From: Arenicola marina
Taxonomy: Eukaryota > Annelida > Polychaeta > Arenicolidae
Assembly: GCA_964019135.1 (NCBI GenBank)
Contig: OZ025263.1
Coordinates: 24,551,639 to 24,615,638 of the forward strand
Reading direction: 5' to 3'
DNA: 64,000 nt
The notes beneath the pieces were generated by a model that was not told the origin of the DNA, did no database searches, and was given only the letters and a program-made list of their open reading frames with translations. A program made the translations under genes and the position numbers. This document shows, in pieces, positions 17,807 to 44,800 of the stretch (positions within the stretch are counted from its first letter, which is position 1; each line of letters starts with the position of its first letter).

Positions 17807-20800
17807 CTATTGGGAAAGACGAGGAAAGGGCGATAATACCAGTATAACAGGTTTAAATCTAACCTCTTAATTTAACTGCCAGTTTAATGTATAGGTTGGT
17901 TCACATAGTATCACACCACGTAATTTATTGGCAACAAGTGTCTGATTGTTGTAAACAACATCAGTAATGCAATGACCATTGTAAATATGTATTGAATCGT
18001 ATTGATTTTTTGTCTTTGCTTTATCTTCTATTACATATCTTCATTGAAGCGGTACAGACAAAAAAAACACAGCAGCTGCGTAGGTCAAATAACTAAGGCT
18101 ATGATGGCGTTACTTGTTCGGGTTGTGACCGTCTTGACCGGGCTTCGAACCAGAGACCTACAGTCGAATGTTCTACCCACTGGACCACGGAGGCTGCCCC
18201 GGGTTCAGGAAGGTTTTTTGTATAATGAATATTTATTTAAAGAGGTTTGCAACAACACACATAGAGTACACATCTTAATGCTTACTTCAATTCCGGAAGC
18301 TTACTTCTACCATATATGGCGTGTCATACTCACGAATGGTCCATCGTTGGCGAGCGGCACTGGTCCCCTGTTCATGGTCCCGATGGCTCGGCGAGCAGTC
18401 GTGGCGTAGTCCGGATCGGTGACGCTGTCCTCGTAGGACGGGATCTCTTGTCGTTGGGAGAAGTTCTTCAGGATCGACCAATCCTGTCACGCAGAAACAG
18501 AATAAACAAGGTCAGCCAGTGCCTGGATCGTCCTGCCGGGGTGGTAATGGACAAGTCTGTAGCTGCAGTCTATAATGGCCTATAGGGTCTTTTTATCGGA
18601 CTTTATCGGACTTGGTGTAGTGCAAACCCAATAACAATGACCTCCCAGCTACAAATACAGCTACACTTGGACGATTGCTGGGTCATCATCTAGTTTGCCC
18701 ATCGCTTTAGCATCTGACCGATGTCGGTAATGAAATCAATTTATAGATGTATAAAACTGTTAATGAGAGTCGGCACTAAACGGAAAAACTAACACATTAA
18801 ACACCTTGAACTAACCTTGAAGTTAGGTCCAGATATGCTGGATAGGGGGGGCCGGTTTGGGTTTCCATGTGTTAAATGGTATAAATTACGGCCCTAAAAG
18901 GGAAGGGGGGGACGGGGGCGGGGCCGGGTCAGCTTCCCCCTGGATCCACTCCTGGGGGGGGGGGGGTGTTACTTACGATTGGGCGTCCCGGGGCGACCGA
19001 CCGCGGTTTAACGTGGATCCTATCCGGATCGTACGGCGCCGCACGTGTGACATGCGACCGGAAGTCGTCCGAGCGGAGCGTGCCGTTGTTCTGCCAGTGC
19101 ATCCAGCGAGCCCGGGGGATGGGCGGGTTTGGAAAGAACTCCCGCTCAGAGTCCGTGAAGCTGCTGCCATCGGAAGACGGCGGCGGGCTCTTATCGCGGC
19201 GCCGGTTGCAGCAGACGATGACGAGCACAACGACCAGGACGAGGAGAATGATGCCGAAGATGGTTCCCATGATGACGGCCAGCAGCGGGAAGTCCTCGTC
19301 GGGGAGGACTGCAACAGGGAAGGGCACATTGAGGCGGGGCAACGTGATATGGGTTATTGTGATATGGGGTATTGTGATGTGGGGTATTGTGATATAGGGT
19401 ATTGTGATGTTGGGTATGGTGATATGGAGTATTATTGTGATATGGGGCATTGTGTAGATTTAAGGTACACAGGCTAGACGGTGTGAACCAACGATTTCAA
19501 GGGCATAGCACAACAGTTCAGCTTGAATGGCATATAACTTTTGTTTGAACCACTAAAGAATTATATCGGTATCACAGTTGTATTATAATTACTGTGCAAG
19601 CTTTATGTACAAATACTGGACAGTGAACTAGTTAATAATGACACAAGCCCATGGTTAACCCACATTATATTAAGTCAAATATATCAAATAAAAACAGATT
19701 GGTAATGTTTGCCATCGGCCGGTGAATTAATGTCGTTATTTGAGCATTTGACCTAGATCCATGTGTCTTGATATTAAAATCGGACTAATTCTCTGGTCAT
19801 AATGTTGGTTTTCCTATAGTGGGCGGCTCAGGCCAGTGTCGGTTTGTGGACTTACATCGGTATTTCACTGTATCGGCCTTGACCTGGTATGAGAAGATAC
19901 TGAGATTCTGCCTCAAGGCTTCCTCCAGGAGAGGGGGATCTGCTTCTTTATCCAACGTCAGTATCCAACTCGCCCAGATGGTCCCCGGCCTAGAACAGGG
20001 GTTGACGATAATTGACATTGCACCAGGGGTGCTGTGTGAACATTATACGGCGGGCATGTATGGAAGGTGGGGGGGGGGGAGGGGTCACGTAACCAGGGCG
20101 GGCGGCAATAATAGGGGGTGGAGCGGTCCCGCAGCGAGGGTGGGGCGGGCACGTAGCGAGGGTGGGGCGGGCACTAATAGGCGTGGGGCGGACATGTAGC
20201 GAGGGTGAGGCAGGCACGTAGCGAGGGCGGGGTAGGCCCGTAGCAAAGGTCGGACATGCACTAGAGGGTGAGGCGGGCAAGTAGCAAAGGTAGGACAGGC
20301 ACTAGAGGGTGGGGCGGGCAAGTAGCAAAGGTAGGACAGGCACTAGAGGGTGGGGCGGGCAAGTAGCAAAGGTAGGACAGGCACTAGAGGGTGGGGCGGG
20401 CAAGTAGCACAGGTAGGACATACACTAGAAGGTGGGGCAGGCACGTAGCAAAGGTAGGACAGGCACTAGAAGTTCGAGGCAGGCACCCATAGGGTGTGTG
20501 GCGGGCACTAGAGGGTGGTGCAGGCACTAGTTGGGAGGGGGGGCGGGGGTGGGGGGCGTAGCGAGTTGGGTTGGGTCATACATAATATATACAGTGAACT
20601 GACCAAGTAGACCATGGCTTCGCCTTTGCACCGCTTGGAACCACAATAGTAAAGCGTCAAAGACGTATAACGCTGAACGATCAACAAAGAATGGACCCCC
20701 CTCCACCCCTCTCGTGACTTTGACGACTTGTCGGACTTACCAGAACTCGACGCCGGAGACCGACACATGATGGGGCACGTAGGTGAGCGCCAGACAGCCA

Positions 20801-23800: not shown

Positions 23801-26800
23801 AACATTGGTGCATATCACTCACCTTCGCAGCCTAAGTTGGTGGGCTCATATCCCGCGTTACATGTGCACTGGTAGGCACCCATCAGGTCCGAGCACTTGC
23901 CATTCGGACCGCAGATTGTGGCGTTCTTGCACTCGTCGATGTTTTGGTCACAGCTGCCGCCGTTCTCGAATCCAGGGGGACACTGGCTGCACCCCGTGAC
24001 AGGGTCGCAGGGGGTCGTAGCGTCCGCACAGCGACACAGGGACATGCACCCGACCCCCCATTTTAGACCGCTTTCTGTGCAATCTGTTGGGGGGGGGGGG
24101 GGGGTCATCGGGAATGGAGAAACACGTGCGTTAAAATGGTGACACTTGGTGACAGTTTGGTCAACAAATAATTCAACCTTTAATTTCATTGTGTGAAGGC
24201 TGTTAATTTGAAACGGGTGAACAACAAGCAAGGTTTGGAACACAATCGTCTCATCGACTGAAATGGTGATGATATATACATAATACTGGGGACATAACCA
24301 AGTGTGTATCTTCATTATGATGATCATTTGTAACAGTTTTAATCATCCATAAAGGCGACTAAGAGGAAAGATGAGAGTCCGACTAACTCTACTCCATTTG
24401 CACTAATTAAGGACACGAGTATATTAACAGTGGCAGACCCAGAGGGGTGGCGAGGGGAGGGGGGGGGGGGGTATTGGTATCAGGAACCCAATTGTTTTAC
24501 CCAGGATGACCTTTCTCCCCTTTTTAAATGCTAAATGTAAACTTTCTCATGAGTGGCCCCCCCGCCCCGCTCCCCCCCCCCCCCCCCCCCCCGACTCATC
24601 ACCTATGTTTCGTGAAGCCCATCCTTGTTTACGTTCAACACAAATGGCAGCCGTAAGATGTTCGGATAACTCATATTGCTTACCCAAAGTGCCCCCTCCC
24701 CACCCCCGCCCCAATTCCAAAATTCTGTTTCCGAATTGTCAAATATCGGCCGTTAGGAATTGGACTTACCTTCGCACGTGCGACTGTCCAGGAGAAGCTC
24801 GAAACCCGCGTTACAGACGCAGTCGTAACTGCCGTTGGTGTTTTGACAGACGGCGTTACTGTCACATTCGTGAGCACTCGCGCACTCATTAATATCTGAA
24901 TGTATGGAGGAAACAGATAACACACTTTATTCAGAATACCGTTGTCTGTAATAGGTGTATAATATGTAGAGCTGTGTAATAATAACACACCTCAAGGCAA
25001 AGCTGTACTACTAAGCTCACTAAACACGTGATTATGACAAGTTATGAGTGAGATTATTTCAAACATCTGTTATTACATTTGGACACCAGAATAACGCCAT
25101 CTGGATTTAGGCACATGGGTCATCAGACAAAATACGTCATCGTGTTTGTTGCACAGCTGCTTTGGATGATCACATATCACCAATCAAGTAACTATAGTTC
25201 ATACCATAGCATACAGCAAAAGTGCCATCAATATATATCCAGCCTGTCAGGGCTGGAGACAGAGACGACTAGTGATCTACATGCCGACATTATCACCTGA
25301 CACCAATCTATATATAGATACGATGTACAGAGTGATCTGACGTCGATAACAATTAAACCAAAACTAATAATATGCGAGGTTGGCAGAGGCTACTGGTCGA
25401 CGCACATCTAGGTATACCAAACGGACGACACAGCTGTCTCAACACCACGTGACTGACCCTTACCTATACACGTTGTATTATCGGCTGGGTCGACTTCATA
25501 GCCCAGTGCGCAGATACACTCATCGAGATTATTGCAGCCGTACTTACACGCCAGGCTACAGTTCACCGTCGAATCTACCGTAGAGCAGACAGCCGCCAAT
25601 TATAGCAATAACAGTGGCGAACTCATTGTCACACCCAAACTTATGTAAAAAGGCAGATATATGTAGATATATATGTCTATATAATTATGTAAATATCATA
25701 TAAATAAATAAATATATATATATATATAAAATCAACAAAAGTAGTATCATATCATATCACTTAGCGAAGATATTTAAATTGAAATCAAAGCGGTACATAT
25801 GTACGTGACCATATGTTAGCATTATCCTCTGATGCTAGAGGTAGCCTTCCCCCCGGCATGGTAGCCAGTGGTAACAACACACCAAACCCAGAACCATATT
25901 GGTATAACGCTGGAAACTAAGGAGGATAAAACCAAGGGCATGTCATCAAATGAAACCATAAGCCCTTCCAATGACGTGTTACTCCTGTATATATTTCTTC
26001 GGTGTCTAGCTTTGCTGACACATTACTAACCTTGGACACACGGTGTACCGTTAAATCCTGGGAAGCAGCCACAGGTGAAGTTAACATTATCTACGACAGG
26101 ATCTTTGTCCGTGCAATTTTGGTCACACGTGAATAGTCCTAGAGCGCACTCGTCGATATCTGTCGGGGACGTTCATAATGCATATAAAGATATAGTTTGT
26201 CATGTCCAGGAACACGGACTATGCTGCTCAATTTACTTAAAGTGGTCCATATAGGAAACTATGACTACTAAATCAAAATTTCAGCTCTTGACTATATATT
26301 CCAGTCGATGTCGAAAGCGTTCAATTAATGAACTTCCAAATATACATTGCCATGACTGTTAGTGTCTATTTTGCATGGCGTTAGTAACCAAAGATTTCTC
26401 TGTCAATGACCACAAAATCTCGCACTTTTCTCGGGTTCTCCTGTAGTAATTATAGCAGTCCTAGTGATTCTTTCCTTGAAAAGGCCGAGAGATAAGTACA
26501 CAAGTTATTGCTTCCGCCAACTTCCAGCGTACTTCTATATGGGATACACGAACCTATGTTTGATGGCCTGGACACGTGTTAGACTGAGAGTGGGAACTTA
26601 CTTAGACACGTGTTAAACTGAGAGTGGCTACTTACTTAGACACGTGTTAGACTGAGAGTCGCTACTTACTTAGACACGTGTTAGACTGAGAGTGGGTACT
26701 TACTTAGACACGTGTTAGACTGAGAGTGGGTACTTACTTAGACAGTGTTAGACTGAGAGTGGGTACTTACTTAGACACGTGTTAGACTGAGAGTGGGTAC

Positions 26801-29800
26801 TTACTTAGACACGTGTTAGACTGAGATTTGGTATTTACTTAGACACGTGTTAGACTGAGAGTGGGTACTTATTTTGAGACGTTTCAGCCTGAGCGTGGGT
26901 ACTTAGTTAGGGACGTGTTAGACTGAGAGTGGGTATTTACTTAGACACGTGTTAAACTGAGAGTGGGAACTTACTTACCCACGTGTTAGACTGAGAGTGG
27001 GAACTTACTTAGACACGTGTTAGACTGAGAGTGGGAACTTACTTAGACACGTGTTAGACTGAGAGTGGGTACCTAATTAGATACGTGTTAGACTGAGAGT
27101 GGGTATTTACTTAGACACGTGTTAGACTGAGAGTGGGTACTCCCTTAGAGACGTTTCAGACTGAGATTGGGTACTTATTTAGACACGTTAGTGGGAATTC
27201 ACTTAGACACGTGTTAGACTGAGAGTGGGTACTTACATAATACGTGTTAGACTGAGAGTGGGTATTTACTTAGACACGTGTTTGACTGAGAGTGGGTACT
27301 CCCTTAGAGACGTTTTAGACTGAGAATGGGTACTTAATTAGACATGTGTTAGACTGAGAGAGTGGGTACTCCCTTAGTGACCTTTCAGACTGAGAGTGGG
27401 TACGTATTTAGACATGTGTTAGACTGAGAGTGGGTACTTAATTAGACACGTGTTTGACGGAGAGTGGGTACTTACTTAGACACGTGTTAGACTGAGAGTG
27501 AGTACTTACTTAGACACGTGTTAGACTGAGAGTTGGTATTTACTTAGACACGTGTTAGACTGAGAGTGGGTACTTATTTAGAGACGTGTTAGACTGAGAG
27601 TGGGTACTTGTTTTGAGACGTTTCAGCCTGAGAGTGGAAACTTATTTAGGGACGTGTTAGACTGAGCGTGGGTATTTACTTAGACACGTGTTAGACTGAG
27701 AGTGGGTACATACTTAGACACGTGTTAGACTGAGAGTGCGAACTTACTTAGACACGTATTAGACTGAGAGTGGGTACATACTTAGAGACGTGTTAGACTG
27801 AGAGTAGGAATTTACTTAGACACGTGTTAGACTGAGAGTGGGAACTTACTTAGACACGTGTTAGACTGAGAGTGGGAACTTACTTAGACACGTGTTAGAC
27901 TGAGAGTGGGAAATTAATTAGATACGTGTTAGACTGAGAGTAGGTATTTACTTAGACACGTGTTAGACTGAGACTGGGTACTTGATTAGACACATGTTAG
28001 ACTGAGAGTGGGCATTTACTTAGACACGTGTTAGACAGAGATTGGGTACTTATTTAGACACGTGTTAGACTGAGAGTGGGTACTTGATTAGACACGTGTT
28101 AGACTGAGAGTGAGTACTTACTTAGTCACGTGTTAAACTGAGAGTGGATACTTACTTAGACACGTTTCAGACTGAGAGTGGGTACTTATTTAGACTGAGA
28201 GTGGGTACTTATTTAGAGACGTTAGTGGGAACTTACTTAGACACGTGTTAGACTGAGACTGGGTACTTATTTAGATACGTGTTAGACTGAGAGTGGTTAT
28301 TTATTTAGACACGTGTTAGACTGAGAGTGGGTACTCCCTTAGAGACGTTTCAGACTGAGAGTGGGTACTTAATTAGACACGTGTTAGACTGAGAGAGTGG
28401 GTACTCCCTTAGTGACCTTTCAGACGGAGAGTGGGTACGTATTTAGACACGTGTTAGACTGAGATTGGGTACTTAATTAGACACGTGTTAGACTGAGAGT
28501 GGGTACTTGTTTTGAGACGTAGGTGGGAATTTACTTAGACACGTGTTAGACTGAGAGTGGGTACTTACTTAGATACGTGTTAGACTGAGAGTGAGTACTT
28601 ACTTAGTCACGTCTTAGACTGAGAGTGGGTACTTAATTAGACACGTGTTAGACTGAGAGTGAGTACTTACTTAGACACGTGTTAGACTGAGAGTGGGTAC
28701 TTGTTTTGAGACGTAGGTGGGAATTTACTTAGACACGTGTTAGACTGAGAGTGGGTACTTACTTAGATACGTGTTAGACTGAGAGTGAGTACTTACTTAG
28801 ACACGTGTTAGACTGAGAGTTGGTATTTACTTAGACACGTGTTAGACTGAAAGTGGGTACTTATTTAGACACGTAGGTGGGAATTTACTTAGAAACGTGT
28901 TAGACTGAGAGTGGGTACTTACTTAGATACGTGTTAGACTGAGAGTGGGTATTTACTTAGACACGTGTTAGACTGAGAGTGGGTACTCCCATAGAGACGT
29001 TTCAGACTGAGACTGGGTACTTATTTAGACACGTTAGTGGGAACTTACTTAGACACGAGTTAGACTGAGATTGGGTACTTGCTTATTTAGACACGTTAGT
29101 GGAAACTTACTTAGACACGTGTTTGACTGAGAGTGGATACTTACTTAGATACGTGTTAGACTGAGAGTGGGTATTTACTTAGACACGTGTTAGAATGAGA
29201 GTGGGTACTTAATTAGACACGTGTTAGACTGAGAGTGGGTACTTACTTAGACACGTTTCAGACTGAGAGTGGGTACTTATTTAGACACGTTAGTGGGAAT
29301 TCACTTAGACACGTGTTAGACTGAGAGTGGGTACTTACATAATACGTGTTAGACTGAGAGTGGGTATTTACTTAGACACGTGTTTGACTGAGAGTGGGTA
29401 CTCCCTTAGAGACGTTTTAGACTGAGAATGGGTACTTAATTAGACATGTGTTAGACTGAGAGAGTGGGTACTCCCTTAGTGACCTTTCAGACTGAGAGTG
29501 GGTACGTATTTAGACACGTGTTAGACTGAGAGTGGGTACTTAATTAGACACGTGTTTGACGGAGAGTGGGTACTTACTTAGACACGTGTTAGACTGAGAG
29601 TGAGTACTTACTTAGACACGTGTTAGACTGAGAGTTGGTATTTACTTAGACACGTGTTAGACTGAGAGTGGGTACTTATTTAGAGACGTGTTAGACTGAG
29701 AGTGGGTACTTGTTTTGAGACGTTTCAGCCTGAGAGTGGAAACTTATTTAGGGACGTGTTAGACTGAGCGTGGGTATTTACTTAGACACGTGTTAGACTG

Positions 29801-32800
29801 AGAGTGGGTACATACTTAGACACGTGTTAGACTGAGAGTGCGAACTTACTTAGACACGTATTAGACTGAGAGTGGGTACATACTTAGAGACGTGTTAGAC
29901 TGAGAGTAGGAATTTACTTAGACACGTGTTAGACTGAGAGTGGGAACTTACTTAGACACGTGTTAGACTGAGAGTGGGAACTTACTTAGACACGTGTTAG
30001 ACTGAGAGTGGGAAATTAATTAGATACGTGTTAGACTGAGAGTAGGTATTTACTTAGACACGTGTTAGACTGAGACTGGGTACTTGATTAGACACATGTT
30101 AGACTGAGAGTGGGCATTTACTTAGACACGTGTTAGACAGAGATTGGGTACTTATTTAGACACGTGTTAGACTGAGAGTGGGTACTTGATTAGACACGTG
30201 TTAGACTGAGAGTGAGTACTTACTTAGTCACGTGTTAAACTGAGAGTGGATACTTACTTAGACACGTTTCAGACTGAGAGTGGGTACTTATTTAGACTGA
30301 GAGTGGGTACTTATTTAGAGACGTTAGTGGGAACTTACTTAGACACGTGTTAGACTGAGACTGGGTACTTATTTAGATACGTGTTAGACTGAGAGTGGTT
30401 ATTTATTTAGACACGTGTTAGACTGAGAGTGGGTACTCCCTTAGAGACGTTTCAGACTGAGAGTGGGTACTTAATTAGACACGTGTTAGACTGAGAGAGT
30501 GGGTACTCCCTTAGTGACCTTTCAGACGGAGAGTGGGTACGTATTTAGACACGTGTTAGACTGAGATTGGGTACTTAATTAGACACGTGTTAGACTGGGA
30601 GTGGGTACTTACTTAGACACGTGTTAGACTGAGAGTGAGTACTTACTTAGTCACGTCTTAGACTGAGAGTGGGTACTTAATTAGACACGTGTTAGACTGA
30701 GAGAGTGGGTACTCCCTTAGTGACCTTTCAGACTGAGAGTGGGTACGTATTTAGACACGTGTTAGACTGAGAGTGGGTACTAAATTAGACACGTGTTTGA
30801 CGGAGAGTGGGTACTTACTTAGACACGTGTTAGACTGAGAGTGAGTACTTACTTAGACACGTGTTAGAGTGAGAGTGGGTACTTGTTTTGAGACGTAGGT
30901 GGGAATTTACTTAGACACGTGTTAGACTGAGAGTGGGTACTTACTTAGATACGTGTTAGACTGAGAGTGAGTACTTACTTAGACACGTGTTAGACTGAGA
31001 GTTGGTATTTACGTAGACACGTGTTAGACTGAAAGTGGGTACTTATTTAGACACGTAGGTGGGAATTTACTTAGAAACGTGTTAGACTGAGAGTGGGTAC
31101 TTACTTAGATACGTGTTAGACTGAGAGTGGGTATTTACTTAGACACGTGTTAGACTGAGAGTGGGTACTCCCATAGAGACGTTTCAGACTGAGACTGGGT
31201 ACTTATTTAGACACGTTAGTGGGAACTTACTTAGACACGAGTTAGACTGAGATTGGGTACTTGCTTATTTAGACACGTTAGTGGAAACTTACTTAGACAC
31301 GTGTTTGACTGAGAGTGGATACTTACTTAGATACGTGTTAGACTGAGAGTGGGTATTTACTTAGACACGTGTTAGAATGAGAGTGGGTACTTAATTAGAC
31401 ACGTGTTAGACTGAGAGAGTGGGTACTCCCTTGGAGACGTTTCAGACTGAGAGTGGGTACTCCCTTAGAGACGTTTCAGGCTGAGAGTGGGAACTTACTT
31501 AGACACGTGTTAGACTGAGAGTGAGTACTTACTTAGTCACGTGTTAGACTGAGAGTGGGTACTTACTTAGACACGTTTCGGACTGAGAGTGGGTACTTAT
31601 TTAGACACGTGTTAGACTGAGAGTGAGTACTTACTTAGTCACTTGTTAGACTGAGAGTGGGTACTTACTTAGACACGTTTCAGACTGAGAGTGGGTGCTT
31701 ACTTAGACACGTGTTAGACTGAGAGTTGGTATTTACCTAGACATGTGTTAGACTGAGAGTGGGTACTTATTTAGAGACGTGTTCGACTGAGAGTGGGTAC
31801 TTGTTTTGAGACGTTTCAGCCTGAGAGTGGATACTTATTTAAGGACGTGTTAGACTGAGCGTGGGTATTTACTTAGACACGTGTTAGACTGAGAGTGGGT
31901 ACATACTTAGGCACGTGTTAGACTGAGAGTGAGAACTTACTTAGACACGTATTAGACTGAGAGTGGGTACATACTTAGACACGTGTTAGACTGAGAGTGG
32001 GAACTTACTTAGACACGTGTTAGACTGAGAGTGGGAACTTACTTAGACACGTGTTAGACTGAGAGTGGGAACTTACTTAGACACGTGTTAGACTGAGAGT
32101 GGGAAATTAATTAGATACGTGTCAGACTGAGAGTGGGTATTTACTTAGACACGTGTTAGACTGAGATTGGGTACTTATTTAGACACGTGTTAGACTGAGA
32201 GTGGGTACTTGATTAGACACATGTTAGACTGAGAGTGGGCATTTACTTAGACACGTGTTAGACAGAGATTGGGTACTTATTTAGACACGTGTTAGACTGA
32301 GAGTGGGTACTTGATTAGACACATGTTAGACTGAGAGTGAGTACTTACTTAGTCACGTGTTAGACTGAGAGTGAGTATTTACTTAGTCACGTGTTAGACT
32401 GAGAGTGGATACTTACTTAGACACGTGTTAGACTGAGAGTGGGTACTTACTTAGACACGTGTTAGACTGAGGGTGGGTACTTACTTAGACACGTGTTAGA
32501 CTGAGAGTGGGAACTTACTTAGACACGTGTTAGACTGAGAGTGGGTACTCACTTAGATATGTGTTAGACTGAGAGTGGTACTCCCTTAGAGACGTTTCAG
32601 ACTGAGAGTGGGTACTTATTTAGTCACGTGTTAGACTGAGAGTGGGTTCTGAATTAGACACGTGTTATACTGAGAGTGGGTACTTACTTAGACAGTGTTA
32701 GACTGAGAGTTGGTATTTGCTTAGACACGTTTTAGATTGAGAGTGGGTACTTACTTAGACACGTGTTAGACTGAGAGTGGGTATTTACTTAGACACGTGT

Positions 32801-35800
32801 TAGACTGAGAGTGGGTACTCCCTTAGAGACGTTTCAGAGTGAGAGTGGGTACTTATTTAGACACGTGTTAGACTGAGAGTGGGAACTTACTTAGACACGT
32901 CTTAGAATGGGAGTGAGTACTTACATGGACACGTATTAGACTGAGAGCGGGTACTGACTTAGACACGTGTCAGACTGACAGTTGGTACTTACTTAGACAC
33001 GTGTTAGACTGAGAGTGGGTACTTACTTAGACACGTGTCAGACTGAAAGTTGTTACTCACTTAGACATGTGTTAGACTGAGAGTGGGTACTTACTGAGAC
33101 GCGTGTGACAATGAGATTGGTTACTCACTTAGACACGTGTTAAACTGAGAGTGGGTACTTACTTAGTCACGTTTTAGACTGAGAGTGGGTACTTATTTAG
33201 GCTGAGAGTGGGTACTTATTTAGACACGTTAGTGGGAACTTACTTAGACACGTGTTAGACTGAGACTGGGTACTTATTTAGATACGTGTTAGACTGAGAG
33301 TGGGAACTTACTTAGACACGCGTCAGACCGAGAGTGGTTACTCACTTAGACACGTGTTAGACTGAGAGTGGTTACTCATTTTGACACGTGTCAGACTGAG
33401 AATGGGTACTCTCTTAGACACGTGTTAGACTGAGGGTGGTTACTCATTTTGACACGTGTCAGACTGAGAGTGGGTACTCTCTTAGACACGTGTTAGACTG
33501 AGAGTGGTTACTCACTTAGACGCGTTTCAGACTGAGAGTGGGTACTTATTTAGACACGTGTTAGACTGAGAGAGGGTACTTACTTGGACACGTGTTAGAC
33601 TAAAAGTGGGAACTTACTTAGACACGTGTTAGACTGAGAGTGGGTACTCACTTAGACACGTGTTAGACTGAGAGTGGTTACTCACTTAGACACATGTTAG
33701 ACTGAGAGTGGTTACTCATTTTGACGCGTGTTAGACTGAGTGATTACTCACTTAGAAACGTGTTAGACTGAGAGTGGTTACTCACTTAGACACGTGTTAG
33801 ACTGAGAGTGGGTACTTGATTAGACACGTGTTTGACTGAGAGTGGGTACTTACTTAGTCACGTGTTAGACTGAGAGTGGATACTTACTTAGACACGTTTC
33901 AGACTGAGAGTGGGTACTCATTTAGACTGAGAGTGGGTACTTATTTAGACACGTTAGTGGGAACTTACTTAGGCACGTGTTAGACTGAGAGTGGGTACTT
34001 ATTTAGATACGTGTTAAACTGAGAGTGGGTATTTACTTAGACACGTGTTAGACTGAGAGAGTGGGTACTCCCTTAGTGACCTTTCAGACTGAGAGTGGGT
34101 ACGTATTTAGACACGTGTTAGACTGAGAGTAGGTACTTACTTAGACACGTGTTAGACTGAGAGTGAGTACTTACTTAGTCACGTGTTAGACAGAGAGAGG
34201 GTACTTACTTAGACTCGTTTCAGACTGAGAGTGGGTACTTATTTAGGCGCGTAGGTGGGAATTTACTTAGACGCGTGTTAGACTGAGAGTGGGTACTTAC
34301 TTAGATACGTGTTAGACTGAGAGTGGGTATTTACTTAGACACGTGTTAGACTGAGAGTGGGTACTCCCTTAGAGACGTTTCAGACTGAGAGTGGGTACTT
34401 ATTTAGACACGTTAGTGGGAACTTACTTAGACACGAGTTAGACTGAGATTGGGTCCTTGCTTATTTAGACACGTTAGTGGGAACTTACTTAGACACGTGT
34501 TTGACTGAGAGTGGATACTTACTTAGATACGTGTTAGACTGAGAGTGGGTATTTACTTAGACACGTGTTCGACTGAGAGTGGGTACTCCCTTAGAGACGT
34601 ATCTATCGTGGGTACTTACTTAGACACGTGTTAGACTGAGAGTGGGTATTTACTTAGACACGTGTTCGACTGAGAGTGGGTACTCCCTTAGAGACGTATC
34701 TATCGTGGGTACTTACTTAGACACGTGTTAGACTGAAAGTGGGAACTTACTTAGACACGTGTTAGACTGAGAGTGGGTACTCCCTTAGAGACGTTTCAGA
34801 CTGAGAGTGGGTACTTATTTAGACACGTGTTAGACTGAGAGTGGGAACTTACTTAGTCACGTTTCAGACTGAGAGTGGGTACTTACTTAGACACGTGTTA
34901 GACTGAGAGTTGGTATTTACCTAGACATGTGTTAGACTGAGAGTGGGTACTTATTTAGAGACGTGTTCGACTGAGAGTGGGTACTTGTTTTGAGACGTTT
35001 CAGCCTGAGAGTGGATACTTATTTAAGGACGTGTTAGACTGAGCGTGGGTATTTACTTAGACACGTGTTAGACTGAGAGTGGGTACATACTTAGGCACGT
35101 GTTAGACTGAGAGTGAGAACTTACTTAGACACGTATTAGACTGAGAGTGGGTACATACTTAGACACGTGTTAGACTGAGAGTGGGAACTTACTTAGACAC
35201 GTGTTAGACTGAGAGTGGGAACTTACTTAGACACGTGTTAGACTGAGAGTGGGAACTTACTTAGACACGTGTTAGACTGAGAGTGGGAAATTAATTAGAT
35301 ACGTGTCAGACTGAGAGTGGGTATTTACTTAGACACGTGTTAGACTGAGATTGGGTACTTATTTAGACACGTGTTAGACTGAGAGTGGGTACTTGATTAG
35401 ACACATGTTAGACTGAGAGTGGGCATTTACTTAGACACGTGTTAGACAGAGATTGGGTACTTATTTAGACACGTGTTAGACTGAGAGTGGGTACTTGATT
35501 AGACACGTGTTAGACTGAGAGTGAGTACTTACTTAGTCACGTGTTAGACTGAGAGTGAGTATTTACTTAGTCACGTGTTAGACTGAGAGTGGATACTTAC
35601 TTAGACACGTGTTAGACTGAGAGTGGGTACTTACTTAGACACGTGTTAGACTGAGGGTGGGTACTTACTTAGACACGTGTTAGGCTGAGAGTGGGAACTT
35701 ACTTAGACACGTGTTAGACTGAGAGTGGGTACTCACTTAGATATGTGTTAGACTGAGAGTGGTACTCCCTTAGAGACGTTTCAGACTGAGAGTGGGTACT

Positions 35801-38800
35801 TATTTAGTCACGTGTTAGACTGAGAGTGGGTTCTGAATTAGACACGTGTTATACTGAGAGTGGGTACTTACTTAGACAGTGTTAGACTGAGAGTTGGTAT
35901 TTGCTTAGACACGTTTTAGATTGAGAGTGGGTACTTACTTAGACACGTGTTAGACTGAGAGTGGGTATTTACTTAGACACGTGTTAGACTGAGAGTGGGT
36001 ACTCCCTTAGAGACGTTTCAGAGTGAGAGTGGGTACTTATTTAGACACGTGTTAGACTGAGAGTGGGAACTTACTTAGACACGTCTTAGAATGGGAGTGA
36101 GTACTTACATGGACACGTATTAGACTGAGAGCGGGTACTGACTTAGACACGTGTCAGACTGACAGTTGGTACTTACTTAGACACGTGTTAGACTGAGAGT
36201 GGGTACTTACTTAGACACGTGTCAGACTGAGAGTTGTTACTCACTTAGACATGTGTTAGACTGAGAGTGGGTACTTACTGAGACGCGTGTTACAATGAGA
36301 TTGGTTACTCACTTAGACACGTGTTAAACTGAGAGTGGGTACTTACTTAGTCACGTTTTAGACTGAGAGTGGGTACTTATTTAGACTGAGAGTGGGTACT
36401 TATTTAGACACGTTAGTGGGAACTTACTTAGACACGTGTTAGACTGAGACTGGGTACTTATTTAGATACGTGTTAGACTGAGAGTGGGAAATTACTTAGA
36501 CACGTGTCAGACCGAGAGTGGTTACACACTTAGACACGTGTTAGACTGAGAGTGGTTACTCATTTTGACACGTGTCAGACTGAGAATGGGTACTCTCTTA
36601 GACACGTGTTAGACTGAGGGTGGTTACTCATTTTGACACGTGTCAGACTGAGAGTGGGTACTCTCTTAGACACGTGTTAGACTGAGAGTGGTTACTCACT
36701 TAGACACGTTTCAGACTGAGAGTGGGTACTTATTTAGACACGTGTTAGACTGAGAGAGGGTACTTACTTGGACACGTGTTAGACTGAAAGTGGGAACTTA
36801 CTTAGACACGTGTTAGACTGAGAGTGGGTACTCACTTAGACACGTGTTAGACTGAGAGTGGTTACTCACTTAGACACATGTTAGACTGAGAGTGGTTACT
36901 CATTTTGACGCGTGTTAGACTGAGAGTGATTACTCACTTAGAAACGTGTTAGACTGAGAGTGGTTACTCACTTAGACACGTGTTAGACTGAGAGTGGGTA
37001 CTTGATTAGACACGTGTTTGACTGAGAGTGAGTACTTACTTAGTCACGTGTTAGACTGAGAGTGGATACTTACTTAGACACGTTTCAGACTGAGAGTGGG
37101 TACTTATTTAGACTGAGAGTGGGTACTTATTTAGACACGTTAGTGGGAACTTACTTAGGCACGTGTTAGACTGAGAGTGGGTACTTATTTAGATACGTGT
37201 TAAACTGAGAGTGGGTATTTACTTAGACACGTGTTAGACTGAGAGAGTGGGTACTCCCTTAGTGACCTTTCAGACTGAGAGTGGGTACGTATTTAGACAC
37301 GTGTTAGACTGAGAGTAGGTACTTACTTAGACACGTGTTAGACTGAGAGTGAGTACTTACGTAGTCACGTGTTAGACAGAGAGTGGGTACTTACTTAGAC
37401 TCGTTTCAGACTGAGAGTGGGTACTTATTTAGGCGCGTAGGTGGGAATTTACTTAGACACGTGCTTGACTGAGAGTGGATACTTACTTAGATACGTGTTA
37501 GAATGAGAGTGGGTATTTACTTAGACACGTGTTCGACTGAGAGTGGGTACTCCCTTAGAGACGTATCTATCGTGGGTACTTACTTAGACACGTGCTTGAC
37601 TGAGAGTGGATACTTACTTAGATACGTGTTAGACTGAGAGTGGGTATTTACTTAGACACGTGTTCGACTGAGAGTGGGTACTCCCTTAGAGACGTATCTA
37701 TCGTGGGTACTTACTTAGACACGTGTTCGACTGAGAGTGGGTACTCCCTTAGAGACGTATCTATCGTGGGTACTTACTTAGACACGTGTTAGACTGAAAG
37801 TGGGAACTTACTTAGACACGTGTTAGACTGAGAGTGGGTACTCCCTTAGAGACGTTTCAGACTGAGAGTGGGTACTTATTTAGACACGTGTTAGACTGAG
37901 AGTGGGAACTTACTTAGACACGTCTTAGAATGGGAGTGGGTACTTACATGGACACGTATTAGACTGAGAGCGGGTACTGACTTAGACACGTGTCAGACTG
38001 AGAGTTGTTACTCACTTAGACACGTGTTAAACTGAGAGTGGGTACTTACTTAGTCACGTTTCAGACTGAGAGTGGGTATTTACTTAGACACGTGTCAGAC
38101 CGAGAGTGGTTACTCACTTAGACACGTGTTAGATTGAGAGTGGTTACTCATTTTGACACGTGTCAGACTGAGAGTGGGTACTCTCTTAGACACGTGTTAG
38201 ACTGAGAGTGGTTACTCACTTAGGCACGTTTCAGACTGAGAGTGGGTACTTATTTAGACACGTGTTAGACTGAGAGAGGGTACTTACTTGGACACGTGTT
38301 AGACTGAAAGTGGGAACTTACTTAGACACGTGTTAGACTGAAAATGGGAACTTACTTAGACACGTGTTAGACTAAGAGTGGGTACTCACTTAGACACGTG
38401 TTAGACTGAGAGTGGTTACTCACTTAGACACGTGTTAGACTGAGAGTGGTTACTCACTTTGACGCGTGTTAGACTGAGAGTGATTACTCACTTAGAAACG
38501 TGTTAGACTGAGAGTGGTTACTCACTTAGACACGTGTTAGACTGAGAGTAGGTACTTGATTAGACACGTGTTAGACTGAGAGTGGTTACTCACTTAGACA
38601 CGTTTCAGACTGAGAGTGGGTACTTATTTAGACACGTGTTAGACTGAGAGAGGGTACTTACTTGGACACGTGTTAGACTGAAAGTGGGAACTTACTTAGA
38701 CACGTGTTAGACTGAGAGTGGGTACTCACTTAGACACGTGTTAGACTGAGAGTGGTTACTCACTTAGACACATGTTAGACTGAGAGTGGTTACTCATTTT

Positions 38801-41800
38801 GACGCGTGTTAGACTGAGAGTGATTACTCACTTAGAAACGTGTTAGACTGAGAGTGGTTACTCACTTAGACACGTGTTAGACTGAGAGTGGGTACTTGAT
38901 TAGACACGTGTTTGACTGAGAGTGAGTACTTACTTAGTCACGTGTTAGACTGAGAGTGGATACTTACTTAGACACGTTTCAGACTGAGAGTGGGTACTTA
39001 TTTAGACTGAGAGTGGGTACTTATTTAGACACGTTAGTGGGAACTTACTTAGGCACGTGTTAGACTGAGAGTGGGTACTTATTTAGATACGTGTTAGAAT
39101 GAGAGAGGGTACTTACTTGAACACGTGTTAGACTGAAAGTGGGAACTTACTTAGACACGTGTTAGACTGAGAGAGGGTACTTACTTCGACACGTGTTAGA
39201 CTGAGAGCGGCTACTTACATGGACACGTGTTAGACTGAGAGCGGGTACTGACTTAGAGATGCGGTAGACAGAGTGATTAATTACTAAGACAACTGTTAGA
39301 CTAGAGAGTGGGTAATTACTTAGACACGTGTTAGACTGAGAGTGGGTACTTACTTAGACACGTGTCAGACCGAGAGTGGTTTCTCTCTTAGACACGTGTT
39401 AGACAGAGTGGTTACTCACTTAGACACGTTTCAGACTGAGATAGGGTACTTATTTAGACACGTGTTAGACTGAGAGAGGGTACTTACTTGGACACGTGTT
39501 AGACTGAAAGTGGGAACTAACTTAGACACGGGTTAGACTGAGAGTGGGTACTCACTTAGACACGTGTTAGACTGAGAGTGCTTACTCATTTTGACACGTG
39601 TCAGACTGAGAGTGGGTACTCTCTTAGACACGTGTTAGACTGAGAGTGGTTACTCACTTAGACACGTTTCAGACTGAGAGTGGCTACTTATTTAGACACG
39701 TGTTAGACTGAGAGAGGGTACGTACTTGGACACGTGTTAAGACTGAAAGTGGGAACTTACTTAGACACGTGTTAGACTGAGAGTGGGTACTCACTTAGAG
39801 ACGTGTTAGACTGAGAGTGGTTACTCACTTAGACACCTGTTAGACTGAGAGTGGGTACTTACTTAGACACGTGTCGTTCACGGTATAATATCCGTCAGGA
39901 CAAGCGCATTCAAAGGAGCCGTAGGTGTTGGTACATGCGGCGCCGCTTATACATGTACTTGCATTCCTACACTCGTCGATATCTGAAACATCGGCAATAA
40001 CGATTACTCCTATAATAGGTATAAATGTGACATGAATATATACTACCTTGAAGTCACAAAGCGATCAAACCGAGAGGGGCAAAATCACACGTAGAAGCAT
40101 GTCACACACCCTTTATCTGACCGCTACGTGACAGCACTGTGTTCGCACGATTCCGGTCAGTGCAGGATAAGCGTGAGACGCCTTTTAGTAAAAAAAGCGG
40201 AGGGGGGGGGGGGGCCAGTTTTGTCCTTGTGTACACCAATCAAATGGGCTTAAAAACAGCATTTCCATTCCTTTGCTATGGCGGACATACATACCTGCGC
40301 ACTTCTTTCCCCCTAGAAGCTCGAAGCCAGCTGCGCAGCCAGAGCAGGTGTAGGCATTGCCCGTGGAGTTGTGTTCCGCGGCGTCCGCGTCCTTACACTG
40401 GATGCTGGCTTGGCAGGGATTCGCCAAACACCCGTTCACTTCAGTATCGCAGAAGTCGCCTGGAGCAAGCATGGCATATAATACACAGCGTGAGATGACA
40501 TCATGGCAAACTATACGCCGCGTGAGATGGCGTCATGGCAGACTATACGCCGCGTGAGATGGCATCATGGCAAACTATACGCCGCGTGAGATGGCATCAT
40601 GGCAAACTATACGCCGCGTGAGATGGCGTCATGGCAGACCATACGCCGCGTGAGATGACATCATGGCAGACCACACGCCGCGTGAGATGGCATCATGGCA
40701 GACAACACACCGCGGAAGAGGGCCACAATAATAACTTTGGACTAGCGATCAGTTCATATGAATATGAATAATATGGGTTCGGAAGTGGCCAAACATTTTA
40801 TTTCATAACGTCACATTGATCTCCCAATCCTCGCTAATCTTCGCTCCCAACAAGTATATAGCGGCTACTCACCTTCCCAGGCCGGGAAACAGTCGCAGTA
40901 TGTGACCTGGAAGGTGTCCGTCTTGTTGTAGGCGCTGAGAAGATGCTCGTAGTCGCAGACCCCTTGATTCACGGAACACGGGCACATGCGGACGAGGGTT
41001 ATCAGCGCCACCGCCCTGGCATCCTTCGAATCCGTGCCAGTGAATCTGCAGAGGAATGGTAGTAACGAAGATGAGGATAGCAGTGACCTATTTCAGACAT
41101 ATAGTTTAGCCAGGCTACGGCGCTTAGATGGCTAAAATCGCCCATCATTTTTACATGGCAATTTAAGCCCACTAAGCCCCGTAGTCGGCTAAACTGCGTT
41201 CGCGAAATCCACCAGTGGACTTACATGAGCTGAGCTGAGGCGGCTACCTCAACAAATACATAAGTCCGGGGATCGTGCGTTGGCGCAGAAAGGACCATTG
41301 TACTCGCATTACCTCATTGCGTATATGTGGGATTATATTGATTAAATTGATTAAATATAGTTATTATGCTGACACCAGATTAAGTTGATATCATTACATA
41401 AGGCGATCACGTGACTAATTAAGCAATTAATTTGGGAGCGCGGCCTTGAAGTTGACCTCCTTGACCCCTAATGCTTGCTACCCGTACCTGAATGTTTCTG
41501 TGGGGTTGAGGTTCTGTGGGGTCCACGTGAGTGTGGCCGTCTGGCCTGTGACCATGAATGTGGCTCCTGGAGGTAGGTTGAAGTCGGCTATCAGAGTCAC
41601 CGTGTGCCCCTCGGGGTCGTTGGCTGTGATGACCATGGTGGCTTCCACCATGAGCTGCACGTCCAGCACTGTGAGACCCACGATAGTAGGCGGATCGTTG
41701 TCTGGGAAACGTGGGGTAGAGAGACGCAGACCGTGAGACGAGGGATGATAATCAGAGCATCATAGGTCCCAGGCAGATCGGATTTATTCCAGGTGACATG

Positions 41801-44800
41801 ATGAGGATGATGGAAATATCTATACGATCAATTTCTCAATTTGTGTTTTCAGTTACAGCTGATGACATCGGTCTCTTATTTTGCATTTTTTTGTATTTAT
41901 TTCTGTATTTTTGTTTTATTTCTCGATGTCATAAGCAATATTGTTGATAATTTATGGATTCAAATTAATTAAGGTTTAGTTAATTAAGTGCTTAACCACA
42001 TATAAACCATTGAATTCCAAGGATCACCGATGCATAGATTTACTCACTGAGTAAGCCATCCATCTTGAAATTCTCCTCCTGGATTTCTTTGGTTGCCTGG
42101 GCAACGGCAGGGTCCCCGGTGACGAAGAGGTCGTAGAGGCACTGTAAGTTGCTTGCGCACAGGGTATCGGCGGTGGTTTCGGCGGCGGCGTCCGGCCAGA
42201 TGACGTCATCTTGGAAGAGAGGCTGGAAGAGCTCGTTCTGGAAGGTGAAGTAGTCCGTCCCCGGGGGGTAGTAGAACAGGGAGTCCACCGGTGCAATCCT
42301 CCCTGCAATTCGCAAAAGAAACATCGGCTTTTAGTATCCACATGAGATACACCTGCAACAATACAAAATACACGTAGTGTCTCGTCACATAGATGAAAAC
42401 TACAGCGTCACCGCTCATGTCAACGAAATCAGTCACGCCAACGCCCTCGTCACGCCGTGCCTGTTCCACGTGACGTCACCAAAACTTACATTGCGGGCCG
42501 AAGTCGGCGAAGATGTCCCTGTCCGAGGCGGTGAAGGGGTAGACAGTGCCGTCCGGCAGTGCGAGGTCGTCCTCCGTTCGGTTGTTGAACACTCCCAGGA
42601 GGCCATGTGTCCTTCCCAGCAGGCCACTGGTCAACAGCACACGGAAGTACAGCTGCCCAGGCGCCGCTCCCAGGATTAGAGCCACGCCTCAAATAAGAAA
42701 TACATTTATTATGAAATACAGTAAATCATATAATTATTAAGTTCCGTTTTATAAAAATCATATCATTATTAAATTCAGTTCATAAAAACCATATAATTAT
42801 TAAATTCAGTTCATCAAAACCATATAATTATTAATTCAGGGCATAAAAATCATAAAATTATTAAATTATGGTCATAAAAATCATTAAATTATTAAATTCA
42901 GGTAATAAAAATCATAAAATTATTAAATTCAGGTCATAAAAATCTTCGTTTTTTTAATAGAGACAAATCTAAACCAGATGTCTAAGTTATAGACCTGGCT
43001 GGCAATATAAATGATGGCAAAAAGCCCTCACAAGCTCTCGTATTATAGACACAAGAATAGATATGTAACAGTTTTCCTCATACTGACCCTAACTGGATTA
43101 TGTTACATTCTGCAAATCGATTACGTTAATAAATCCCTCGATTGCAATTGGTTGACTGCCTTATTGTAATTGAATATTTTGATCTCAACTTGTTTTCAAG
43201 CTCTGAACAAGGGTCAAGCAGGCGTGTCCAGAAGGCGCCACAGCTCAGTAGATTAAAGCATAGACAATTCTTGGCGTACCAGCGGGAACCCTGCTTGGGG
43301 CATCCAGCAGGGACATTGCTAGGAGCGAAGAGCAGGAAGCCAGCTTGGGGTGTCAGCAGGGACCCAGCTTGGGGTGGTCAGTAGGGAGCCAGCTTGTGGC
43401 GGCCAGCAGGGACCCAGATAGGGGCGGTCAGCAGGTACCCTGATTAAGGCAGCCAGCAGGAAGCCAGCGTGGGGCGGCCAGCGGCGACCCAGGTAGGGGC
43501 GGTCAGCAGGGACCTAGCTTGTGGCGGTCAGCAGGGAGCCAGCTTGTGGGGGCCAGCAGGGACCCAGATAGGGGCGGTCAGCAGGGACCCTGTTTAAGGC
43601 AGCCAGCAGGAAGCCAGGGTGGGGCGGTCAGCCGGGACCCAGGTTGTGGCGGCCACCAGGGACCCAGCTTGGGGATGCCAGCAGGGACCCAGCTTGGGGC
43701 GGCCAGCAAGGAGCCAGTCTGAGGCGGCCAGCAGGATGGTTGGTTGATTATTCAGGACGCTATGACCACTTTTGGTCATATCGCGTCAATGGGAGAAAGA
43801 AGGGACAGTGGAGCCATGTCCCCGGGAGTAACCCCCTACCGGCCAGCCGGGAGCCAGCTTGGGGCTGCCAGCTGGGACCTGGCTTGGGGCGGCCAGCAGG
43901 GACCCAGCTTGGGGCAGCCAGCAGGGAGCCAGCTTGTGGCGGTCAGTGGGGACCCAGCATGGGGCAGCCAGCATGGACCCAACTAGGAGGGGTCAGCAGG
44001 GAGCCAGTTTGAAGGGTTCAGCGGGGACCTTGCTTGGGGCATCCAGCAGGAACCCAGTTGGAGGCGGCCAGCAGGGAGCCAGCATGGGGCGGCTAGAAGG
44101 GGCCCGGCGTGGGACGGCCAACAGGGAGCCAGCATGGGGCGGCTAGAAGGGACCCGGCATGGGGCGGCCAGCAGGGAGCCAGCATGGGGCGGCTAGCAGG
44201 AACCCAGCATTGGGCGGCCAGCTGGGACCCAGCATGGGGCGGCCAGCAGAGACCCAGCCTGGGGAGGCCAGCAGGATACAGTCGAGCTCTCACCGGATTG
44301 GAAGGCCACATACAAAGTGGCGCCATCTTTGCGGAGAATCATGCTCTCAGCTACCATCTCGTCGCCGTCCGCAGCGTTGAGGAACCAGTCAGTGAAGGAC
44401 TGGGTCTCATCCACAATAATCTCCAGCCCTGGAATTTATGTATTTCAATATATATATAACTAGATAATTTAAGTAATTAAATATGGAGTTAGCGTTATTG
44501 GATTGCTCCCGGTCAGCGAGAAAACATCAACTATCACGAACCTTCTAGATGAGTAAAATGAGCGAAATTACTCAATCCCGGAATTGATGGTTATAACATG
44601 ATATAAGTAATAATATTACATTATTTCGCATGCAGCGAAAACTGATTAAATTCGTGGTTAAATGTGTAGGCCGACGAGAGGCCATCAGTGCAAGTATGGC
44701 TTAGCGAACGGCCATTCCAATGGTAATGAGTGTTTGACATTGCCGTGTTTGGCGGTGTACCCACCGGAGAAGTCGGCATTGACGGCCACGTATATCCGGG

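Follow-up and report, generated by a model that had tools for sequence, protein, structure and literature searches.

Tandem repeats whose unit crosses a splice junction, termed mirages, have been reported from the amphioxus Adh3, globin, TnC and PGBD5 genes, where they are described as not disturbing regular splicing, and the mirage paper warns that the copies could serve as cryptic sites and yield aberrant transcripts. In the published examples, BflGb6 carries 6 and 3 units of 150-160 bp each in two haplotypes, and the Adh3 units measure 10-72 bp. Splice signals also stand in tandem inside the human UBC and VCX3A genes (PMC10809524), and introns have been described as arising when AG|GT proto-splice sites are duplicated in tandem (PMC3087553).

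Here we describe an intron of the annelid Arenicola marina that consists almost entirely of about 400 tandem copies of its own exon-intron boundary and is an extreme case of this little-studied repeat type. The window, that is, the whole stretch of DNA analysed, comprises 64,000 nucleotides of contig OZ025263.1 (assembly GCA_964019135.1, positions 24,551,639 to 24,615,638). Coordinates below are window positions, and the host gene lies on the minus strand. The features at the center of the analysis are:

26571..39874, minus strand: tandem array, 34-bp unit, 401 units (TRF and wrap-around alignment)
26160..39862, minus strand: intron of 13,703 bp, nearly all 34-bp array
39841..39874, minus strand: exon-proximal unit with the presumed real donor TAA|GTAAGTA, matching the consensus at 34/34 positions
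39863..39982, minus strand: calcium-binding EGF exon of phase 1-1 with the required frame open, whose last 12 bases are the unit's first 12 (EGF_CA, E 4.7e-11)
26031..26159, minus strand: next EGF exon, in frame when the exon-proximal donor is used

As in the amphioxus mirages (Adh3, BflGb6, BflGb9 and TnC, together with the PGBD5 duplications), the unit crosses a splice junction, combining the end of an exon with intron; many copies, though not all, keep the splice signal (GT in 244/401 units here); donor-side and acceptor-side cases both occur; and there is internal turnover, seen here as 173 distinct units and as repeated blocks at 98.4-99.5% identity. The first-pass annotation had already drawn the comparison with amphioxus, and the published descriptions bear it out. 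Unlike the globin mirages as reported, the present array is far larger, with 401 units of 34 bp over 13.3 kb. The UBC array, as described, has coding units in which AG|GT serves both ways, whereas the units here are intronic and their consensus donor lacks AG|GT (PMC10809524). With intron gain from AG|GT proto-splice sites the locus shares a duplication across a splice signal, but its acceptor at 26159 is not built from the repeat, and 411 bp lie between the two (PMC3087553). The array therefore more likely enlarged an existing intron than created one.

Results

The array and its host gene

TRF (period 34) finds 400.3 copies with 81% matches over 26571-39874, and wrap-around alignment on the minus strand resolves the array, read from 39874 to 26571, into 401 units, the last a 9-base stub, so that the count of about 390 given in the first-pass annotation was somewhat low. 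The alignment score was 19591, vs 22 and 18 for two shuffled copies. At least 30 of the 34 columns are present in 365/401 units, whose mean identity to the consensus is 91.7%. Only 411 bp of the intron, at its acceptor end, are not array.

The core observation of the first-pass annotation, an array whose unit crosses the exon-intron junction and the GTAAGTA donor, is confirmed with corrections. The unit comprises 12 exon bases and 22 intron bases, with the donor directly at the junction, and the first unit is the consensus itself. It begins inside the exon as claimed, and the exon's identification as EGF was right, but 12 bases are shared (39874-39863, ACACGTGTCTAA) rather than 13: the base before them is G in the exon and, among the 401 units, A in 308 and G in only 61. 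Within 3 kb of the 39863/39862 junction there are 85 near copies (at most 5 mismatches) of the 24-mer centered on it. Because the shared bases contain the last cysteine codon of the EGF_CA domain, the exon is the likely source of the repeat. A 29-base stretch of the unit had no exact match in viral or prokaryote collections.

The host is a large mucin-like animal gene. Profile matches above cut-off are to VWD (2.9e-11), C8-3_MUC4 (9.6e-10) and EGF_CA (3.5e-18); against a cut-off of 25, NIDO scores 25.5 bits on one exon and falls slightly short at 24.8 bits on another, AMOP reaches 20.0 bits, under its cut-off of 25, and the mucin repeats were recognized by eye in the list of open reading frames. 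The order in MUC4-like membrane mucins, a candidate class for the host gene, is mucin repeats, NIDO, AMOP, VWD, C8-3_MUC4 and EGF. Our model contains 30 exons chosen by hand on frame, phase, domain and splice score, and some exons may be missing from it; for exon 62305-61418 the first base was placed by rough guess, with no AG before it, but only the donor of this exon is of importance. When 13 of the hand-picked exons are joined via the exon-proximal donor, they give 761 stop-free codons against 23 and 28 stops in the other two frames, a result not fully independent of the picking, since phase and absence of stops were among its criteria. We infer from frame and position that this donor is the real one. 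Past it, the frame of the EGF exon runs in the ORF listing to ...CLSKYPLSV and a stop ending at 39840, and extension of the exon to the donor of any distal unit adds this one shared in-frame stop, which ends 23 nt beyond the junction.

Growth of the array

With the stub left out, the 400 units comprise 173 distinct ones. The array also contains repeated blocks of 2127, 1426, 641, 615 and 577 bp at 98.4-99.5% identity, the largest of which is:

31614..36924, no strand assigned: internal duplication, 31614-33740 vs 34798-36924, 99.2% identical over 2127 bp with 17 differences

This duplication continues at 98.4% over a further 641 bp, with 10 differences. Such long, near-identical blocks indicate that the array grew in part by kilobase-scale duplication. 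They could also raise the suspicion that its size or copy number is an assembly artefact, given that long tandem arrays are prone to error and that the 1426- and 615-bp blocks are 99.4-99.5% identical. We regard this as highly improbable in view of the number of distinct units and of the 17 and 10 differences in the largest block and its continuation, which a simple assembly duplicate would not show; moreover, an artefact would change the copy count and not the junction-spanning unit at the exon. The 34-bp unit has a palindromic core, ACACGTGT, and longer palindromic cores are present in two other arrays. That such cores may act as seeds of arrays is a weak lead, with P 0.023 against plain shuffles when summed over 15 units and P 0.13 for the 34-bp array alone.

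Decoy donors and their preservation

The array had been described as holding hundreds of near-identical donors, which overstates their uniformity: in register, GT is intact in only 244/401 units, GTRAGT in 175 and GTAAGT in 140. The idea of many competing donors nevertheless stands, with 136/401 units, the real one counted, equaling or exceeding the real donor in a nine-base score and thus 135 decoys; the scoring matrices were approximate remembered values for animals with no training on this genome. GTRAGT occurs in 117 of the first 225 units, near the exon, and in 58 of the last 176.

In the first-pass annotation the array was seen as a huge binding surface for U1 snRNP that might prevent premature polyadenylation, retain U1 or delay splicing; the rival reading weighed here is that selection maintains it for such a role. 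On the sense strand, the density of GTRAGT is 13.2/kb in the array vs 0.71/kb in the rest of the window, and sense exceeds antisense by 176 to 22 in the array (a plain text count, one above the 175 in register) compared with 32 to 20 elsewhere in the window; a second array of the gene, at 60309-61141, has 14 sense and 0 antisense. According to a review, intronic poly(A) sites up to about 1 kb away are suppressed by U1. A repeat every 34 bp is far denser than that range requires, however, and signals on which such suppression could act are nearly absent from the 13.3-kb array (2 AATAAA, 0 ATTAAA). GT is also missing from 157/401 units. Among the 173 distinct units, with gaps counted as losses, it ranks last for intactness among the 34 dinucleotides (60.7% vs a median of 82.1%, a rank expected about 1 time in 34 by chance). 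Identity averages 0.858 over the donor columns, compared with 0.937 in the 12 exon columns and 0.933 in the remaining 16 intron columns (P 0.12 by rank test), and changes counted on a tree average 5.5 per column in the six donor columns vs 5.9 elsewhere (P 0.65). Column identity, tree changes and dinucleotide intactness thus gave no sign of selection for keeping donors within the array. Because preservation is no higher in the donor columns than in the unit's other columns, the proposed U1 function is unsupported, and we consider it very unlikely.

As for the opposite form of selection, we do not claim that decoys are purged, since the evidence is mixed: GT has the lowest intactness among distinct units, but tree changes in the donor columns are not raised, and intact decoys are commoner close to the EGF exon than far from it, a gradient that removal of the most dangerous decoys would not produce.

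The consensus unit contains, in order, the donor, an acceptor-like CTCTCAG and a TCTAAC that we take to resemble a branch point, with 16 nt from the AG to the next donor. This arrangement raises the possibility that the intron is removed stepwise, with units serving as recursive or nested splice sites, or else supplying a series of alternative donors and microexons, and the human UBC tandem array of dual AG|GT sites is reported to splice stochastically (PMC10809524). Against this, the acceptor of the consensus unit scores 1.9 vs a median of 6.5 for the 29 predicted acceptors, although 2 of these score lower; the consensus has TAA|GT in place of AG|GT and no good acceptor directly before the donor; and the 16-nt piece, if included, would bring an in-frame TAA (A|TC TAA, by reading the sequence). 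We therefore find stepwise removal very unlikely. Acceptor-like sites scoring at least 4.5 number 10 in the array (0.75/kb), roughly 7-fold rarer than in the rest of the gene's intron sequence outside arrays (5.5/kb), and the best of them scores 7.3, in unit 2.

RNA structure as a marker of the real donor was rejected, because 256 nt around the junction fold no more stably than shuffles (z -0.43; 59/200 shuffles equally or more stable).

Other arrays at splice junctions of the gene

The gene carries further arrays at or near its junctions:

50419..51055, minus strand: acceptor-side junction-spanning array, 10 copies of the exon's first ~30 bases upstream of the exon start at 50448, CAG before 9/10
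50292..50448, minus strand: exon whose 5' end is copied in that array
57650..57842, minus strand: 67-bp-unit array starting 3 nt past the donor of exon 58014-57846, not seen spanning the junction
40470..40714, minus strand: 32-bp-unit array that stops 10 nt short of the acceptor of exon 40459-40295, not seen spanning the junction
47812..48531, minus strand: 92-bp-unit array starting 14 nt past the donor at 48546
43279..44275, minus strand: 25-bp-unit array starting 18 nt past the donor at 44294
52748..53084, minus strand: 13/25-bp-unit array starting 22 nt past the donor at 53107
58036..58207, minus strand: 35-bp-unit array that stops 21 nt short of the acceptor at 58014, acceptor-like CCAG in its units
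42723..42944, minus strand: 31-bp-unit array that stops 35 nt short of the acceptor at 42687
19344..19454, minus strand: 15-bp-unit array that stops 35 nt short of the acceptor at 19308

These arrays bring up the possibility that splice junctions in this genome are birthplaces of minisatellites, linked to transcription or splicing, with the 34-bp array as the largest of several in the gene. For this comparison 15 intronic arrays were kept. Mono- and dinucleotide runs, the AT-rich 25678-25730 and the poly-G-like 53447-53475 had been dropped beforehand, as had sub-rows or overlapping rows of one array, rows inside 26571-39874, all rows outside 18977-62324 and the mucin-exon arrays at 58709-59623 and 61537-62075. 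Ten of the 15 lie at most 40 nt from a junction vs 2.2 expected (1 in 200,000 simulations), although this is a single gene with hand-picked exon ends, and the 40-nt limit was chosen after the distances were known. Limits of 25, 60 and 100 nt take in 8, 10 and 10 arrays vs 1.4, 3.3 and 5.3 expected, counts reached in 0, 0 and 0.59% of 20,000 simulations each. The excess persists without the 34-bp array (9/14 vs 2.0 expected) and in a stricter gene model (9/11 vs 1.9; 0 of 200,000 simulations), which was given 12 of the 15 arrays (19344, 20116 and 60309 omitted with their exons) and counts 11 because the array at 21308 falls outside its introns; leaving out both spanning arrays in the stricter model gives 7/9 vs 1.4 (P 1.5e-5). 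Near copies of junction 24-mers, by contrast, were found for only 2/58 junctions vs 13/400 random 24-mers outside arrays, a rate no higher, so most arrays adjoin junctions but do not copy them. Array edges could also come to lie at junctions through survival bias, or because arrays extending into exons are selected against. On balance, a birthplace at junctions is possible but falls short of likely. This account concerns origin and is compatible with a tolerated mirage.

Discussion

We think that the array is probably a junction-spanning minisatellite, or mirage, of extreme size that is tolerated and self-expanding, without demonstrated function, and that the exon-proximal donor is probably picked by position. 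A short stretch over the donor of the EGF exon would have been duplicated in tandem, and its copies would then have multiplied within the intron, presumably by slippage, as well as by the duplication of blocks of up to about 2.8 kb that the near-identical blocks document. The resulting array appears to be tolerated.

Position is the likely basis of donor choice because the nine-base donor sequence cannot separate the real site from its 135 decoys. The proximal donor is probably singled out by exon definition, through the acceptor of the same exon, which lies 120 nt upstream. Against this, experimental rules hold that when several strong donors compete, the one nearest the acceptor is often favored; in DOK7 this choice is reported to depend on SRSF1. 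Most tests of models of splice-site choice have set no more than two or a few donors against each other. The decoys may be less dangerous than their number suggests, since strong acceptors are scarce in the array, leaving few decoys that could be recognized as separate exons, and since exons extended to a distal donor meet a stop 23 nt past the junction. Errors of the latter kind would be expected to go to nonsense-mediated decay and give no new protein. Ten acceptor-like sites scoring at least 4.5 do occur within the array, a counterpoint to the safety of the decoys.

More speculatively, and we hold this only tentatively, junctions may be hot spots of minisatellite birth where transcription or splicing seeds duplication, with this intron a runaway seed whose equal donors would show choice by position only. 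One exon facing 135 decoys that equal or better its donor by the nine-base score, all in the sense orientation, makes the locus a natural test of donor choice, because rules based on the donor nearest the exon, the donor nearest the acceptor or exon definition predict sharply different RNA-seq outcomes. If it holds genome-wide, the clustering of arrays at junctions would tie the birth of repeats to gene structure and give mirages a general rule.

Structure of the array and its host gene

The junction-spanning array is real and unusual. Tandem Repeats Finder reports a single array of period 34 at 26571-39874 (400.3 copies), and a wrap-around alignment along the minus strand, on which the gene lies, divides it, from 39874 to 26571, into 401 units, the final one a 9-base stub, with a score of 19591 vs 22 and 18 in two shuffled copies. 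At least 30 of the 34 columns are present in 365 of the 401 units, whose mean identity to the consensus is 91.7%. This consensus reads ACACGTGTCTAA followed by GTAAGTACCCACTCTCAGTCTA, the exon ending between the two at 39863. The exon-proximal unit (39874-39841) equals it exactly, thus bearing out the first-pass annotation's view that the unit crosses the end of an EGF exon and its donor into the intron. The array is as huge as that annotation held, its count of about 390 copies being somewhat low. Because of where the exon end falls in the consensus, the exonic share of the unit is the last 12 bases and not the 13 originally proposed; the exon has G just ahead of them, a base that 61 of the 401 units share, but 308 have A there. 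Only 411 bp of the 13,703-bp intron, at its acceptor end, lie outside the array. The CpG within CACGTG is mostly intact across 26571-39874 (C in 374 and G in 377 of 401 units), and on a tree built from 156 distinct, nearly gap-free units its two columns change 6 and 7 times, near the mean of 5.9, so that there is no sign of CpG decay.

Blocks of 2127, 1426, 641, 615 and 577 bp recur inside the array at 98.4-99.5% identity, the 2127-bp and 641-bp blocks being in line with each other, and additional blocks of 373-625 bp recur at 93.7-96%. The array therefore grew not by small steps alone but also by duplicating segments up to about 2.8 kb long. The 17 substitutions between the near-identical copies of the 2127-bp block argue against simple duplication in assembly.

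The likely source of the unit, exon 39982-39863, codes for an EGF domain of the calcium-binding type, as the first reading had it (EGF_CA, E 4.7e-11). When the array intron is spliced out between the exon-proximal donor and acceptor 26159, 13 joined exons from 45019 to 21914 give 761 stop-free codons in one frame, with 23 and 28 stops in the remaining two. Since the exons were hand-selected by frame, phase, domain content and splice score, this open frame is supporting but non-independent evidence. The protein contains VWD (2.9e-11), C8-3_MUC4 (9.6e-10) and several EGF domains; exons upstream give a NIDO match close to that domain's cut-off and a sub-threshold AMOP match, and are preceded by threonine/serine-rich mucin repeats. 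Given these matches and repeats, the predicted host gene appears closest to membrane mucins of the MUC4 type. When the first 280 residues were searched against PDB sequences, they returned distant VWD-type matches only, the best being the Fc fragment of IgG binding protein (6.8e-10), and the ORF at 19459-18929 contains a transmembrane segment, judged by eye. The threonine/serine-rich mucin repeats are encoded by coding minisatellites at 58709-59623 (51-bp units) and 61537-62075 (117/51-bp units). Two further ORFs lie in the window:
6523-7980, minus strand: ankyrin-repeat ORF (Ank_2, E 2.9e-10)
12415-13947, plus strand: reverse-transcriptase ORF (RVT_1, E 2.6e-13), probably a LINE-like element

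Donor copies and the proposed U1 platform

The donor GT is intact in 244 of 401 units, GTRAGT in 175 and GTAAGT in 140, and an approximate donor matrix places 136 units, the one with the presumed real donor among them, level with or above that donor. Donor sequence alone is thus unable to single out the real site. Many donors would compete, as first supposed, though they are not near-identical throughout. GTRAGT occurs 176 times in sense and 22 times in antisense within the array; the rest of the window, with 15 listed arrays set aside, has 32 and 20, a sense density of 0.71/kb vs 13.2/kb in the array.

The array had been proposed to act as a surface for U1 snRNP. If U1 binding had kept the donors, they ought to be more intact than other parts of the unit, which they are not. 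With gaps excluded, the six donor columns average an identity of 0.858, the 12 exon columns 0.937 and the other 16 columns 0.933 (donor vs all others, rank test P 0.12). When the 173 distinct units are compared, no dinucleotide of the 34 is less intact than the donor GT (60.7%, the median being 82.1%), and only one of 34 hexamers is less intact than GTAAGT; changes counted on the tree do not differ between donor and other columns (5.5 vs 5.9, P 0.65). Moreover, the array holds two AATAAA and no ATTAAA, vs 1.07/kb and 0.58/kb respectively in the rest of the window, and so has little to protect within itself. A review puts the range of U1 suppression at about 1 kb (PMC3826338). Donor non-preservation and the scarcity of poly(A) signals speak against a selected U1 platform; U1 itself may still bind.

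Why the array may be tolerated

Of the 29 acceptors predicted as real, 24 score 4.5 or more. The array contains 10 acceptor-like sites at or above this score (0.75/kb), vs 5.5/kb in intron sequence elsewhere in the gene, arrays excluded. The CTCTCAG of the consensus unit scores 1.9 (median of the 29 predicted acceptors, 6.5), and two of the 29 score lower. Because the array is poor in high-scoring acceptors, a strong upstream acceptor is rarely on hand to define an exon with a decoy donor in a farther unit; the real donor has its own exon's acceptor 120 nt upstream. Past the junction, the exon frame continues as ...CLSKYPLSV until the first unit brings a stop whose last base is 39840, so every distal donor would yield the same premature stop. 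On general grounds, exon definition would favor the real donor over acceptor-poor decoys, and nonsense-mediated decay would act on transcripts from distal donors. Acceptor scarcity and the shared stop may therefore make the array harmless.

Relation to amphioxus mirages and to other arrays

The amphioxus precedent invoked at first pass is confirmed by PMC3087553 and PMC3902484. The former describes tandem repeats across exon-intron boundaries, on acceptor and donor sides, in Adh3 ("mirages", units of 10-72 bp) and two globin genes, with length instability and, in BflGb6, 6 and 3 units in its two haplotypes; RT-PCR suggests that regular splicing is undisturbed, and the copies might serve as cryptic splice sites. 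PGBD5 and TnC are further cases (PMC3902484), and introns of amphioxus VCBP3 are reported to contain whole or partial exon copies including splice sites (PMC2632668). Judged against these cases, the Arenicola array shares the mirage features tested but differs in its size of 401 units; among the matches listed, mostly outside the subscription literature, no title or abstract start indicates a larger one. Repeated splice sites in human UBC are reported to splice stochastically (PMC10809524), making this a risk here too, and the choice between two close donors is reported to depend on SRSF1 (PMC5585400).

Two other minisatellites of the gene bear on this comparison:
50419-51055: second junction-spanning array, at the acceptor of the exon starting at 50448
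60309-61141: array with a 30-bp unit, in the intron separating two mucin exons; the weak donor predicted at 61418 is 276 bp away

The first ~30 bases of the 50448 exon recur upstream of its start in 10 copies, nine of them with CAG in front. In the array at 60309-61141, GTRAGT occurs 14 times in sense and never in antisense; this array is possibly a mirage that has lost its junction link. Near copies of the spanning 24-mer exist for 2 of 58 junctions, those of 26571-39874 (85 copies) and 50419-51055 (6 copies). This is no higher than the rate for random 24-mers outside arrays (13/400; 183/400 with arrays included), so most junctions are uncopied. Intronic minisatellites nevertheless cluster at junctions in this one gene and its hand-made model: 10 of 15 cross a junction or come within 40 nt of one, vs 2.2 expected (reached in 1 of 200,000 simulations with random placement within the same introns). 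A stricter model gives 9 of 11 vs 1.9 (0 of 200,000), and 7 of 9 vs 1.4 without the two spanning arrays (P 1.5e-5). Units of the arrays at 26571-39874, 52748-53084 and 55739-56585 contain palindromes of 8 to 10 bp (ACACGTGT, ATGACGTCAT and GTATCGATAC); summed over the 15 array units, palindrome content gives P 0.023 vs shuffles.

On this sequence analysis, the array is best classed among the mirages, as an extreme example that is tolerated and of undemonstrated function, and the intron that bears it is a ready-made test of splice-site choice.
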